Below, piece after piece: positions 2,992 to 35,906 of a stretch of DNA of 39,772 bases. A program made the translations under genes and the position numbers. Where the stretch lies: the IMG/VR virus record IMGVR_UViG_3300000553_000105, positions 1 to 39,772 of that record. One strand, written 5' to 3'. The notes under the pieces were generated by a model. The model saw nothing but the letters and a program-made list of their open reading frames with translations. It did not search any database and was not told the origin of the DNA. Each line of letters starts with the position of its first letter. Positions within the stretch are counted from its first letter, which is position 1. Source of the DNA: a virus.

Positions 2992-3551
2992 TTAGCCTTT
3001 TTAACTGTGGCCTTTTGAAAGTATCTCCACCCTAATTCGTCCAGCGGTACAACTTCACCATTAGCGATCTTTTCTTTCACAAACGCACCGAGCAAAGCAG
3101 CGTGAACAGTTTCTGATTCTTTATATGGAACAGAATTTAATTCAAGAAGTTTCTTGACTTCCTGCGCTCTTTCAGATTCTCCCTTATTAAATACAATATT
3201 AAATGTTTCTTTAATGAGAGACTCACCTCCAGACTCAGCAACCCAATCTAATTGAAGGCGACGTTTGTCCAAATCTTCCTTTACAATACCGCCTTGGAAT
3301 GCTGGACGAATTGTAATCTTAGAACCATCTTGCATCTTAAATTCAATTAGACCGCATTCCTGCATTACGCTTGGAAGATTACCTTCCTCAATCAATTGCA
3401 GTTCGTCTTTAAGGCTTTTGAGAAATGCTTCAGCCTGTTCAATCTGAGCATTAAGCTCCAATGCACGCGATGCAAAAACACTGATATTTTGTAGCGCCGA
3501 TTTCGTTGGCGCAACAAAGTCAAATAAGTCTGATTCAACATCTTCTGCCAT
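2988..3551 (-). CDS. Conserved phage protein next to the candidate ssDNA-binding gene
   Basis: A 187-residue protein. Residues about 20-60 form a coiled coil (RALELNAQIEQAEAFLKSLK), followed by a conserved-looking core with LPSVMQECGLIEFKMQDGSKI, VHAALLGAFVKEKI and VVPLDELGWRYFQKATV. This layout recurs in podovirus-like phages beside a ssDNA-binding or recombination gene, as here (4036-4848). That role is inference from position; no catalytic motif is visible. It ends in a basic VKKAK tail. Confidence 0.65.
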   Translation of the reverse strand: MAEDVESDLFDFVAPTKSALQNISVFASRALELNAQIEQAEAFLKSLKDELQLIEEGNLPSVMQECGLIEFKMQDGSKITIRPAFQGGIVKEDLDKRRLQLDWVAESGGESLIKETFNIVFNKGESERAQEVKKLLELNSVPYKESETVHAALLGAFVKEKIANGEVVPLDELGWRYFQKATVKKAK

Positions 3552-3952: not shown

Positions 3953-4028
3953 TGGTATGCCCAGCAGGGATCGAACCTGCGACCTGCGGATTATGAGTCC
4001 GTAGCTCTACCAGCTGAGCTATGGGCAC
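3953..4028 (-). tRNA. tRNA with CAU anticodon (Met, or Ile if modified)
   Basis: Read on the minus strand the cloverleaf is complete. The 7-bp acceptor stem is GTGCCCA/TGGGCAT with a terminal G-U pair. The D arm is GCTC/GAGC. The anticodon loop CTCATAA gives anticodon CAT on a stem with one A-C mismatch at its base. The T arm is GCAGG/CCTGC with loop TTCGATC. CCA is encoded (3953-3955). An initiator would be expected to show a C1-A72 mismatch, so an elongator Met or a lysidine-type Ile2 tRNA is likelier. It lies between two leftward genes and is probably cut from their transcript. Confidence 0.95.
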
Positions 4029-4035
4029 AATCCAT

Positions 4036-4848
4036 TTACATCTTTGAATCAGGATTTACAATGCGAGCATTGGCAGGATCGTTAGGATCATCGTTAACGA
4101 CCTCACCAGTAAGTTTGTTCTCGCGCACGTCAATATAAAATTGCTTAGCTTGATTCAGCAATTCTTTTGTAGGATCAAGTTCTAGGATGGTATAAGATTG
4201 AGAAGGTATAAAAGTATACCAATCACCTTTATCATTGTTATCACTAGCTACAGTTAACTTCCAACTACGATAAAACAATGGTGGAGTAAAAGTACCGTTG
4301 CGCCCCTGCAAAACTTCAGCACGTGACAGCGTCATCCATTTTCTAGAAATTTTCAGATTTGTAGATTTTAGTGGAAAAAATACCTGCTTCCATCGAATAC
4401 CGTCTTGCAACAAGCAAAACCATTCACTGGTTTCTACAATCTTGTTGCCATTAGGTAGAATATTCTCGCGTTTTTCATTCTGAGTAGTTGCTTTCAAGCA
4501 ACTAGCGTCTGATCCGTGATTTTTAATAAGCCCTTCACCTTGAGTCTTTCCCCACTCAATATAAGAAACTCGGAAATAACAAGGAATAACAATGATACTT
4601 TCTTTATAAATATCACCAGTCGCGACATTGCAGAAATCACTAAGTTCTGCGCCTTCGATATATTCAGCTTTCTTTTTATTAAATTGAGGACTCATAGACT
4701 GTATCTGAGTAAGACGCGGTAAAAGCATGTCATTAGTAGTGACATTCTCTGCGCCCATTCCAGCAAATTCTTCAATTTCTTCTGCTGGAAGAAAGAGCTC
4801 ACTTTTCTTGACTTCTTGAACAACTAATTCTTTATTTTCTTCATCCAT
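4036..4848 (-). CDS. Candidate ssDNA-binding / recombination protein
   Basis: A 270-residue protein with an acidic N-terminus, a core including LLPRLTQIQSMSPQF, YFRVSYIEWGKTQGEG and FYRSWKLTVASDNNDKGDWY, and an acidic C-terminal end (VVNDDPNDPANARIV). This organisation, and position beside a coiled-coil partner and a DNA ligase, fits the OB-fold-type ssDNA-binding proteins of phages. I cannot point to a diagnostic catalytic motif, so the function is inferred. It overlaps the upstream 66-residue gene by eight bases. Confidence 0.55.
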   Translation of the reverse strand: MDEENKELVVQEVKKSELFLPAEEIEEFAGMGAENVTTNDMLLPRLTQIQSMSPQFNKKKAEYIEGAELSDFCNVATGDIYKESIIVIPCYFRVSYIEWGKTQGEGLIKNHGSDASCLKATTQNEKRENILPNGNKIVETSEWFCLLQDGIRWKQVFFPLKSTNLKISRKWMTLSRAEVLQGRNGTFTPPLFYRSWKLTVASDNNDKGDWYTFIPSQSYTILELDPTKELLNQAKQFYIDVRENKLTGEVVNDDPNDPANARIVNPDSKM

Positions 4849-5041
4849 TTGATGCGCTCCTGTTATTCTGAATAAACTCTACCATTTGTTCATTAGTAAC
4901 TGGATAATTCTCACGTTCCTTTTCATAATCGTGCATGATAATATAATTAGGATTTTTGAGCAAACTCGCCATTTCCAATTTAAGCCAACCTGCTGGCCAT
5001 TTTTCTATTGGAGTATCTTTAGGATGGTTATAACGAGACAT
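4841..5041 (-). CDS. Small hypothetical protein
   Basis: A 66-residue protein of unknown function (KDTPIEKWPAGWLKLEMASLL, then EQMVEFIQNNR). The ATG overlaps the ligase stop by one base and the stop overlaps the next gene, so it is translated as a bridge between ligase and the ssDNA-binding candidate. Confidence 0.65.
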   Translation of the reverse strand: MSRYNHPKDTPIEKWPAGWLKLEMASLLKNPNYIIMHDYEKERENYPVTNEQMVEFIQNNRSASNG

Positions 5042-31338: not shown

Positions 31339-31519
31339 ATTAGATGCAGCCATTAACAGAGCTGATTCTCTGGAAAAACGCATTGATGCTTTATGCTGCG
31401 CGAACAAGGCGCGCATGGATGGTACGCTTGGTCTGACAATTCCTTTTACTGCGTCCAAACATGAACGTGGTTATCACGGCGTTTTTGTCAAGACCAAAAA
31501 GGGAAAGAAAGAGTCTTGA
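31322..31519 (+). CDS. Small late-operon protein
   Basis: About 65 residues from ATG at 31322 inside the portal's end (AAGG site). It reads MMDSSKLDAAINRADSLEKR, then ASKHERGYHGVFVKTKKGKK. The first half is helical and the C-terminus basic. Its stop overlaps the NUDIX-DUF2213 start. Function unknown. Confidence 0.65.
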   Translation: MMDSSKLDAAINRADSLEKRIDALCCANKARMDGTLGLTIPFTASKHERGYHGVFVKTKKGKKES

Positions 31520-33249
31520 TAAAAGCTGCTGGGGTAATTTTCCTCACTGTTGATAAAAAGGCTTTGTTCCTTCAGCGAAGTGACGAAGGCGATTGCCCTG
31601 GTTTATGGGCATTCCCTTGTGGAAAGATTGAAGGCGATGAGACGCCACAAGAAGCTGCTGAGCGTGAATGTATTGAGGAAATTGGACAGTTTCCAAAAGG
31701 CAATCTTACTCAGCACGCTAGACAAATTACTATTGATGTCGATTATACCACATATCTTATGGTTATCGGCAAAGAGTTTGAACCAGTTTTAAATGGGGAG
31801 CATACTGCATTTACCTGGGCTCCAATTGGCTCACATCCAGAGCCGATGCACCCTGGGGCGGAAATAGCGCTTCAGAAATTCAACCTGGACGAGCTAGGAA
31901 TAGCTCGATTTATGACTGATGGCAGACTATCTTCGCCCCAGTGGTACGAAAACATTGCTCTTTTTGACATAAGGATCACAGGAACAGGAATTGCATATCG
32001 TCGAAAACTTGACGAATTTACATTCCGTGATCCGAATGTTTATCTTAACCAAGAATTTTTAGATCGCTGCAATGGTTTGCCAGTTATACTTGAGCATCCT
32101 AAAACTTCCACTCTTAACACTAAGGAATTTACCAATCGTGTAGTGGGGACTACTTTTGTCCCATATATAAAAGGCGATGAAGTATGGGCCATAGTTAAAA
32201 TATTTGATATCCCTACTGCAAAAATAATGGAAGCAAATCAGTTATCCACTTCGCCAGCAGTAGTGTTTAGAGACCAAGACGTAAATACCAAACTTTCTAT
32301 GGAAGATGGAACTACTCTATTAATTGAAGGCAAACCTAGTCTTTTAGACCACATTGCTATTTGTTCACTAGGAGTGTGGGATAAAGGAGGCGATCCTACT
32401 GGAATAAATAACGGAGATACTCAAATGCCGACTGAAAAAGAAGTCAAGGAAGAAGTCAAGAGCGATGCTGAAGACCGCAAGCGCGCTGACGCAGAAGCTG
32501 GGCAGAAGCTTGATAAGATTTTAGCTCATCTTGATTCAGTTGAAAAGCGCATGGATGCTTTTGAAAAAGAAAAGGCTGACAGCGCAGCCAAAGCTGATAA
32601 CGTCTCTAAGATCGCTGATGCCGAAAAAGAAAAGGCTGATGCTGAAGAGAAGGCCAAGAAGGACGCTGAAGAAAAAGAAAAGGTTGATGCTGAAGAGAAA
32701 GAAAAGGAAATGAAGGCCAAGAAGGACGCTGAGGAGAACTATAAGCGCGCTTCTCGTGAAGACGCTGTTCGCAAAGATGAAGAAGATACGCGCAAGCGTA
32801 TTGCTGATCTTGAGCGTCGTATGCCTCGCCAGTTAGCTGATGCTGATTATAAGGCTATGGCTGATGTTCAGGCAAAGGCTGATTCGGTCTATAATTTCTT
32901 TGGCAAGTCAGCTCCGCGCTTCCTTAATGGAGAAACTCCTGACGCATATCGTCGTCGTTTGGCAGCCGAACTCCAGCCTTATTCTAAGGTCTGGAAGGGC
33001 GTTGATCTTTATAAGATCGACCAGGAAGCTGCTTTCGCGCCGATTGAGCAGCAGATTTATGCTGATGCTGAAGAAGCCGGTCTGCATCCGAGCGATTTGG
33101 ATGAAGATACGCTCCGTGAAATCGTCACTAGGGACGGCATCACAGGTCGAAATACGATTACCTTTGCTGGTCAGCCAAAGACTTGGATGAGAAACTTCTC
33201 TCATCAGAGGCAGTCGGCGCGCTTTGTCCCTGTCAACCGTAACCGTTAA
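31516..33249 (+). CDS. NUDIX hydrolase fused to DUF2213 (prohead protease-like) and coiled coil
   Basis: A 577-residue protein. Residues 1-130 are a NUDIX domain with a full Nudix box (GKIEGDETPQEAAEREC, IEEIG). Residues about 135-310 fit DUF2213, suspected to be the head-maturation protease of such phages (GTGIAYRRKLDEFTFRDPNV, GLPVILEHPK, STSPAVVFRDQD). Residues 318-435 are a Lys/Glu/Ala coiled coil resembling a scaffold, and 440-577 a helical end. TTG start overlaps the previous stop. One chain could combine protease and scaffold with a nucleotide hydrolase. Confidence 0.8.
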   Translation: MIKAAGVIFLTVDKKALFLQRSDEGDCPGLWAFPCGKIEGDETPQEAAERECIEEIGQFPKGNLTQHARQITIDVDYTTYLMVIGKEFEPVLNGEHTAFTWAPIGSHPEPMHPGAEIALQKFNLDELGIARFMTDGRLSSPQWYENIALFDIRITGTGIAYRRKLDEFTFRDPNVYLNQEFLDRCNGLPVILEHPKTSTLNTKEFTNRVVGTTFVPYIKGDEVWAIVKIFDIPTAKIMEANQLSTSPAVVFRDQDVNTKLSMEDGTTLLIEGKPSLLDHIAICSLGVWDKGGDPTGINNGDTQMPTEKEVKEEVKSDAEDRKRADAEAGQKLDKILAHLDSVEKRMDAFEKEKADSAAKADNVSKIADAEKEKADAEEKAKKDAEEKEKVDAEEKEKEMKAKKDAEENYKRASREDAVRKDEEDTRKRIADLERRMPRQLADADYKAMADVQAKADSVYNFFGKSAPRFLNGETPDAYRRRLAAELQPYSKVWKGVDLYKIDQEAAFAPIEQQIYADAEEAGLHPSDLDEDTLREIVTRDGITGRNTITFAGQPKTWMRNFSHQRQSARFVPVNRNR

Positions 33250-34260: not shown

Positions 34261-35286
34261 ATGGCAAATATTAGTCCGGCCCAGACGATTGTTCATCCGT
34301 CTTTTATCGAGCCAGGTATTCTACTCCCTTATGCTCAGGCATCGGGAGCTTTTGATGCTATTGCTGATGGACAGCCGTTGCCTCGTTTAGGTGATGGTGA
34401 TCTTTACGTTTATATGAAGCGTATAGACGTTCGCACCAAGATTACTGTTGGCCAGTCAGCCTACAACTCTCTGCCTTCGATTTCAACAGCGTTGTCGCTG
34501 ATTTCTACTCCCAGTTACTTGATGCGTGTTCGTGCTGAATATGATCATCACGATGTGAGCGCAATGGGTAAATGGGGAGTTAATCTTCCTGAAGCCCAGC
34601 GTCTTGGCATGAGGCAAGCCCATTATCAGATGGCTCGTATTGGCCTTCTGTACGGGTTCAATCCTGCTAACGGCGAAGGGCTGCTCAATACTAACGGTGC
34701 TACTGCCGTCAGTCTGCCTGCTGACAATAATGGTAATACCACTGTTGTCACTTATGATGCTGGCCAGATGGCTTTCTTCATCTTGAGCCAAATTCAGGCG
34801 CTTAAGACACGTACCAACCAGCTTGGTATTGGTCGTAAGTTCGTTATCGTTGGTCCGCAGCAGGACTTGGCACAGTTTGAATATTCTAACATTGTTCAGC
34901 TTGTGCAGTTCCAGATGAAGGGCGGTGGTACTACTTCCACTGCTGGTCTCGTTAAAGACGTTCTTGAATGGAACGCTGACGAGATCATTTGGGCTTATGA
35001 TGACACGCTTATCAACAAGGGCGCTGGTGGCACTACTGATGCTATCCTTATTGTTATGCCTGAAATCCAGAAGCCGCAGGGTTCGAGAATCAACACCAAC
35101 GAGTTTGCTAAACTTGCGCCTGGTATTGAGGCTTGCGCTCTGATGTATTGCGATATGGCAGCGCCTCGTGAAATACCCACTCCGTTGGCGGGTGGTGCTA
35201 CTGACGTTCTGTCTGAATGGCGTGTCACCTCTGGTTGGGGCGTCCGTCCTGAGGCTATTACTATTCTCAGCATGCAGAACCATTAA
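34261..35286 (+). CDS. Major capsid protein (DUF2184-type)
   Basis: A 341-residue protein with the HK97-fold pattern of DUF2184: VYMKRIDVRTKITVGQSAYN, YLMRVRAEYDHHDVSAMGKW, ALKTRTNQLGIGRKFVIVGP, DDTLINKGAGGTTDAILIVM, and a C-terminal EWRVTSGWGVRPEAITIL. It forms the icosahedral shell. A TAGGAG site precedes the ATG. Strong hairpins follow the stop, as expected for the most heavily translated gene. Confidence 0.92.
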   Translation: MANISPAQTIVHPSFIEPGILLPYAQASGAFDAIADGQPLPRLGDGDLYVYMKRIDVRTKITVGQSAYNSLPSISTALSLISTPSYLMRVRAEYDHHDVSAMGKWGVNLPEAQRLGMRQAHYQMARIGLLYGFNPANGEGLLNTNGATAVSLPADNNGNTTVVTYDAGQMAFFILSQIQALKTRTNQLGIGRKFVIVGPQQDLAQFEYSNIVQLVQFQMKGGGTTSTAGLVKDVLEWNADEIIWAYDDTLINKGAGGTTDAILIVMPEIQKPQGSRINTNEFAKLAPGIEACALMYCDMAAPREIPTPLAGGATDVLSEWRVTSGWGVRPEAITILSMQNH

Positions 35287-35313: not shown

Positions 35314-35373
35314 TTGACCAAGCAGGGGTCAAGTTTGCAAGTTCTTGACCCCTGCCCAAAACTTGCAAAAGGA
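35314..35373 (+). promoter_or_regulatory. RNA pseudoknot or kissing-loop element before the 35382 gene
   Basis: GCAGGGGTCAAG (35322-35333) and CTTGACCCCTGC (35344-35355) form a perfect 12-bp stem. All ten loop bases TTTGCAAGTT (35334-35343) are complementary to AACTTGCAAA (35360-35369) just downstream, next to the ribosome site AAGGA (35369-35373). TTGACC (35314-35319) can instead pair with GGTCAA (35327-35332), offering a competing fold. A stem whose whole loop pairs with the translation start of the next gene suggests translational or transcriptional control of expression beyond the capsid. Confidence 0.6.
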
Positions 35374-35381
35374 ACGTAGTT

Positions 35382-35906
35382 ATGAATTTATACATCGCGA
35401 ATGCAACTAATCAAGTTCAGACTTTTATGTATACCATGCCTGAAGTTACTAATGCCAGGCAGCAACAGATCGCTATTGGTGGACAGATTAAGATTAGTGG
35501 AGACTTAAATCCACAGCAGGTCGATGCCATCATTAGCCATCACGCAATTTATGGAATGCGTAAAATTGATGAACTCAACAATATAAGTGGTAAAAAGGTT
35601 CCACTTATTTGTTCTGAAAAGCCAATCCCTGTTACTATTATTCAGAGAATGGTTCTGCATAATACTGGTGTTCTTGGCTTTCAAGGCGAAACTACTCGTA
35701 AGGAATTGGCATTAGGTGTTGATTCGCTTATGAGGCAGAGAGAGCTTGAAGAAGGAACGGCGCCAATAGAGAAGCTGCACATTCATCTAGAGGAAGATAC
35801 CAGAAAAGGTATTGACTCTGAGATTAATGAGATTATCACAGTTGATCGCTCCGATAATCCAGCGCCTCCGCAGAAAACACGTCGTGGTAAAGTCAAAGGA
35901 TTTTAA
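35382..35906 (+). CDS. Head-region hypothetical protein
   Basis: A 174-residue protein: beta-rich N-terminal part (VQTFMYTMPEVTNARQQQIA), then VDAIISHHAIYGMRKIDEL and a helical segment, ending in a basic tail (PPQKTRRGKVKGF). Directly downstream of the capsid in the late operon. A role in head completion or connection is likely from position only. Confidence 0.6.
   Translation: MNLYIANATNQVQTFMYTMPEVTNARQQQIAIGGQIKISGDLNPQQVDAIISHHAIYGMRKIDELNNISGKKVPLICSEKPIPVTIIQRMVLHNTGVLGFQGETTRKELALGVDSLMRQRELEEGTAPIEKLHIHLEEDTRKGIDSEINEIITVDRSDNPAPPQKTRRGKVKGF

Follow-up and report, generated by a model that had tools for sequence, protein, structure and literature searches.

Comparative sequence analysis of a candidate H-type pseudoknot between the major capsid gene and the following structural gene in several phage lineages

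Introduction

The major capsid gene of T7 is followed by an intrinsic terminator, T-phi. In repZ, an upstream hairpin pairs through its loop with sequence just 5' of the next ribosome site (RBS), an interaction that is activating and that is controlled by an antisense RNA. Translation of repZ of the IncI-alpha plasmid depends on this type of pseudoknot upstream of its RBS (PMC8383071). The leader pseudoknot of T4-type gene 32 is located upstream of the start codon, limits translation and occurs in some relatives but not in others such as RB49; according to a 2010 review, that of T4 is perhaps the sole viral pseudoknot used in translational autoregulation (PMC3014915). The T4 knot is positioned 67 nt upstream and serves as the nucleation site for gp32, which binds an A+U-rich RBS. 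The rpsO pseudoknot of E. coli is located at the RBS, includes coding sequence and gains stability from S15; it is able to dock on the platform of the 30S subunit, and accommodation is delayed until the knot has melted (PMC3858243).

Here we describe a hairpin whose loop can pair with the bases adjoining the next RBS, located between the major capsid gene and the following gene in 39,772 nt of viral DNA (IMG/VR record IMGVR_UViG_3300000553_000105; this whole stretch is called the window). This post-capsid knot is a new phage RNA element, absent from Rfam. By analogy, and for its presumed working only, it resembles the translational-operator pseudoknots of T4 gene 32, rpsO and repZ. As with gene 32, it is a phage mRNA pseudoknot 5' of a start codon with a patchy distribution among relatives; unlike the gene 32 knot, it adjoins the RBS, lies between two structural genes and has a protein ligand that is only hypothetical. 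It shares with rpsO its location at the RBS but has a much longer stem 1, and it shares with repZ a hairpin loop pairing just upstream of the following RBS but has no known antisense gene. Post-capsid intrinsic terminators (T-phi and those of relatives) likewise place a strong hairpin immediately 3' of the capsid gene, whereas the window hairpin lacks a U tract and is connected to the next RBS by a second helix.

Results

The capsid gene product matched PHROG 6671 (E 3e-138; no assigned function), phrog_264, major head protein (E 4e-6), and Pfam PF09950, Major_capside (E 5e-5, under Pfam's cut-off). Genes for a terminase, a portal protein, a Nudix/protease-like protein and a hypothetical protein precede it. 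A fused-looking 577-aa protein with similarities to Nudix hydrolases, portal proteins and head-maturation proteases is encoded at 31516-33249 of the window. In the relatives examined, homologues of the 174-aa downstream protein are encoded after the capsid gene; its AlphaFold model has a confident core (pLDDT 82), and the predicted fold gave no PDB match at E<=0.001. An Rfam search of the whole window returned a tRNA alone above the gathering threshold, and a permissive scan of the region gave chance matches only. A tRNA gene is found at 3956-4028 (- strand), in the phage early region.

Table 1. Features of the capsid gene junction in the window
Feature	Position	Strand	Basis
Major capsid protein gene, 341 aa	34261..35286	+	PHROG 6671, phrog_264, Pfam, position
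Small 7-bp hairpin with 10-nt loop, immediately 3' of capsid stop codon	35290..35313	+	fold
TTGACC, proposed stem competitor, judged incidental	35314-35319	+	pairing energy, shuffling
Stem 1, 5' arm GCAGGGGTCAAG	35322-35333	+	sequence, fold
Loop TTTGCAAGTT, 5' strand of stem 2	35334-35343	+	sequence, covariation
Stem 1, 3' arm CTTGACCCCTGC	35344-35355	+	sequence, fold
Spacer CCAA, loop 3 of the pseudoknot	35356-35359	+	sequence, geometry
Stem 2, 3' strand AACTTGCAAA, perfect complement of whole loop	35360-35369	+	sequence, covariation
AGGA, RBS of downstream gene, 8 nt to ATG 35382	35370-35373	+	sequence
Downstream gene, 174 aa, phrog_6737 (no known function), conserved in structural operon	35382..35906	+	

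The earlier note had described a perfect 12-bp stem with a 10-nt loop and a complement of this loop that reaches the next gene's ribosome site, and the sequence is as it claimed (35322-35373). Minimum free energy folding led to the 12-bp hairpin (z = -3.24), with equally stable shuffles in 1 of 200 cases; the small hairpin after the capsid stop codon is outside the conserved core. The chance of a perfect 10-nt complement within the 26-nt flank was ~1.6e-5, and 11 of 100,000 flank shuffles reached one. When both strands of the window were scanned for this architecture, the single RBS-adjacent case was the post-capsid element. Extension of the scan to both strands of the contigs of five knot-bearing phages gave RBS-flagged matches only at the post-capsid positions and in one unrelated contig, which had been chosen for its pattern.

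The full complementarity of the loop stands, but the pairing of every loop base at the same time does not, as 12 and 10 pairs together are stereochemically forbidden. In A-form RNA, the distance across the shallow groove of 12 bp is 43.6 A, for which the 4-nt spacer is too short, and that across the deep groove of 10 bp is 25 A, while loop 1 has zero length. Both helices would be feasible only with approximately 2-3 pairs opened in each, at the bottom of stem 1 and at the outer end of stem 2, and the modelled working form would have about 10 bp in stem 1 and 7-8 bp in stem 2, with AAAGGA just free. The knots of clade A (see below), with 16-17 bp and spacers of 7-8 nt, gave a better geometric fit than the window, and the spacer of L008 and L240 (16 bp, 8 nt) is almost long enough. 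A kissing loop, also suggested previously, is possible in some relatives (L063 and L077): base pairing between spacer and SD, available in clade B and L077, would display the partner strand in a loop. The window does not allow this geometry.

Two other parts of the original proposal fared less well. The TTGACC sequence is present, but its pairing amounts to 6 bp and -6.8 kcal/mol (P ~0.12 by shuffling) and a comparable upstream competitor was found among the knot-bearing relatives in L077 only; with -22.3 kcal/mol for the stem, it is too weak a rival except transiently during transcription. A three-way switch including TTGACC is thus not supported, as the competitor is not general among knot bearers. 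The loop does contain the self-complementary TTGCAA, but no such palindrome was present in the loops of the knot-bearing relatives, and dimer formation through it, being confined to the window, was rejected.

We collected ~150 capsid gene loci from viral contigs and genomes by capsid protein and capsid alignment searches, found 14 further records by a protein search of phage records, of which some were read, and cut the post-capsid gap from each locus. A DNA-level search of phage records gave no match outside the capsid gene. Most gaps contained some strong hairpin, and a few were too short for any structure; in enterobacterial phages and prophages (relatives in Klebsiella, Yersinia, Serratia, Pantoea and Kluyvera), the hairpins were terminator-like, with T runs. 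The knot architecture was found in clade A (L008, L009, L240, L242 and L245), in clade B (L042, L050, L057, L063, L067, L068, L071 and L073), in L077 and in the window. On the capsid protein tree (124 rows), with gap classes assigned by a rough script and corrected by hand in part, these occupy four separate places, and the data fit both independent gains and many losses. The knot is missing from the closest relatives of the window (L015, L017, L018 and L020; 73-78% capsid identity), so that it is either not essential or has had its place taken by other hairpins or terminators. The exact pattern TTGCRAGTG..CACTYGCAA..GGA was absent from 399 Pseudomonadota genomes, and a host-borne element was rejected on this result. 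Of the 121 places returned by a pattern search, most were chance occurrences by the stem test; long stems were present only in a known relative and in L193, an unrelated phage contig.

Compensating pairing was kept in the same gap of related phages, and the covariation check put forward in the earlier note came out in favour of the pairing. In clade A, whose capsid proteins are ~94% identical, 11 of the 16 stem-1 pairs carried compensatory double changes and none was broken. In clade B, stem 2 changed from TTGCTACC/GGTAGCAA to ACTGCTAC/GTAGCAGT in L063, L067 and L071, a switch of two compensated pairs between close relatives. MAFFT alignment of the whole knot misaligned stems differing in length and the rows were therefore extracted by hand according to structure; over 11 rows and 16 pairs, 98.9% were paired and 12 of the 16 pairs showed double changes, counts that lean towards the model since the rows were picked for pairing. 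Double-change cells in both helices of this set numbered 52, versus 15.3 in shuffles, and the covariation score was 0.913, versus 0.251 when shuffled and <=0.17 when the partner was slid by 1-3 columns. For stem 2 (13 rows), the strands of each phage formed 7.8 of 8 pairs with their own partner and 4.0 with partners from across clades.

The less biased test was a strict criterion applied to real and shuffled gaps: a stem >=8 bp, a loop of 8-14 nt, a second helix >=7 bp, a spacer <=10 nt and a distance of 8-17 nt between the end of the second helix and the start codon. It selected 9 of 71 non-redundant gaps and 13 of 85 unique gaps. The corresponding null values were a mean of 0.003 and a maximum of 1 for dinucleotide shuffles of the whole gap (300 shuffles), 0.31 and 4 for shuffles of the 3' flank only (500 shuffles), and 0.7 and 3 when flanks were exchanged among phages (500 exchanges). 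Both helices, with a loop pairing outside its hairpin as in an H-type pseudoknot, are supported by compensatory changes and by the shuffle and swap controls, and at the level of sequence comparison the gap is shown to encode a genuine H-type pseudoknot under selection.

When the start-distance condition is dropped, 17 gaps have the helix, and in 13 of these stem 2 ended 9-15 nt before the start codon, a fixed position relative to the RBS and start codon such as defines a translational operator, while the capsid stop codon was 5-68 nt from stem 1 in the same 13 gaps. Comparison of the gaps shows that the knot keeps its place relative to the downstream start codon, and this constant distance supports the earlier proposal of a control element at the next ribosome site. 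Mainly because the start distance is fixed and the stop distance variable, a role in initiation is preferred over one at the mRNA 3' end.

Discussion

We propose that the knot probably sets the rate of translation of the downstream gene, and our favoured reading, held with modest confidence, is that it dampens initiation. Ribosomes terminating on the capsid gene at 35286 would stop ~35 nt before stem 1 and leave it unmelted. As they would not reach stem 1, the downstream gene would have to recruit its own 30S subunit, and its initiation would be independent of capsid translation within the polycistronic late mRNA. The pseudoknot, on the mRNA exit/platform side of the recruited 30S subunit, would slow accommodation, and the downstream protein would be made at a lower, set rate than the capsid protein. 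The knot is probably a constitutive set-point; a regulator bound to it, either the capsid or the downstream protein, is possible.

We favour dampening over an activating pseudoknot of the repZ type, in which the loop pairing would keep the SD open or give a docking platform for efficient translation, and which we consider rather unlikely. The SD itself is outside stem 2 and stays largely unpaired, which would also suit activation. Thermodynamic modelling left the sign of the effect unsettled, with imposition of stem 2 raising the predicted SD accessibility in the window, L008, L240, L042, L050 and L057 but not in L063, L067, L073 and L077. Alternative SD-pairing hairpins are present in clade B and L077, and stem 2 might open or stabilise them; the CCTTG/CAAGG hairpins of clade B can hide the SD, and their opening by stem 2 would be activating. 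Against activation, stem 2 directly adjoins the SD, a position at which stable helices generally impede binding of the 30S subunit. The precedent for activation is repZ, whose translation requires a pseudoknot upstream of the RBS (PMC8383071).

Less probable still is an mRNA 3'-end or processing element, in which the hairpin would protect or define the 3' end of the capsid mRNA. The terminator-like T-run hairpins of the enterobacterial relatives, which lie exactly in this gap, speak for it. However, the window hairpin is followed by CCAAAACTTG, with no U tract, and so is not an intrinsic terminator (it was not among the terminator-like sites, but that scan took loops of 3-8 nt only, so the missing U tract decides). 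Moreover, a plain hairpin would suffice for such a role, yet the loop and flank covary, and the element is anchored on the downstream start and not on the capsid stop.

We give a low probability to an RNA sensor, in which the capsid or the downstream structural protein would bind the knot and head assembly would gate translation of the next head gene; if true, this feedback would have been kept in at least four phage lineages. Chance complementarity between a strong hairpin and its flank, for which the presence of the knot in a minority of gaps and its absence from the closest relatives could be invoked, is very improbable given the shuffle tests, the covariation, the compensation in clade A and the fixed start distance, and is refuted at the family level (for the window alone, chance is ~1e-5 to 1e-4).

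From a single mRNA, tailed phages have to produce the capsid protein in hundreds of copies and some adjacent head proteins in few. For any particular junction, it is seldom known how this ratio is set, and a start-fixed post-capsid knot would be a concrete and testable answer.

Other RNA elements

A second RNA was observed in the post-capsid gap of many relatives. This strongly conserved three-way junction, with the core AGCACGAANNNACGTGCTTYAAACTGTNGGGRCGACTGTAAGCGTCCGG and a covarying closing stem, was found in 34 viral contigs (for example at L041:3525-3600, L043:3549-3624 and L281:3536-3611), and also elsewhere in L084/L085. It corresponds to no Rfam family and looks ribozyme- or riboswitch-like.

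The gaps of L008, L009 and L240 carry the partner strand in a tandem duplicate (CACTCGCAC CACTCGCAA) 3' of the stem, so that the loop could pair with the RBS-distal or the RBS-adjacent copy. Tandem partner strands were also present in L193. In L193 (IMGVR_UViG_3300033067_002145), a terminator hairpin with a T run occurs three times (3419-3500, 4314-4395 and 4895-4980), each before one of three genes. The terminator loop (TTGCAAGTG/TTGCGAGTG) pairs with CACTTGCAA, adjoining the following RBS, and the principle of the post-capsid element is here placed on a terminator.
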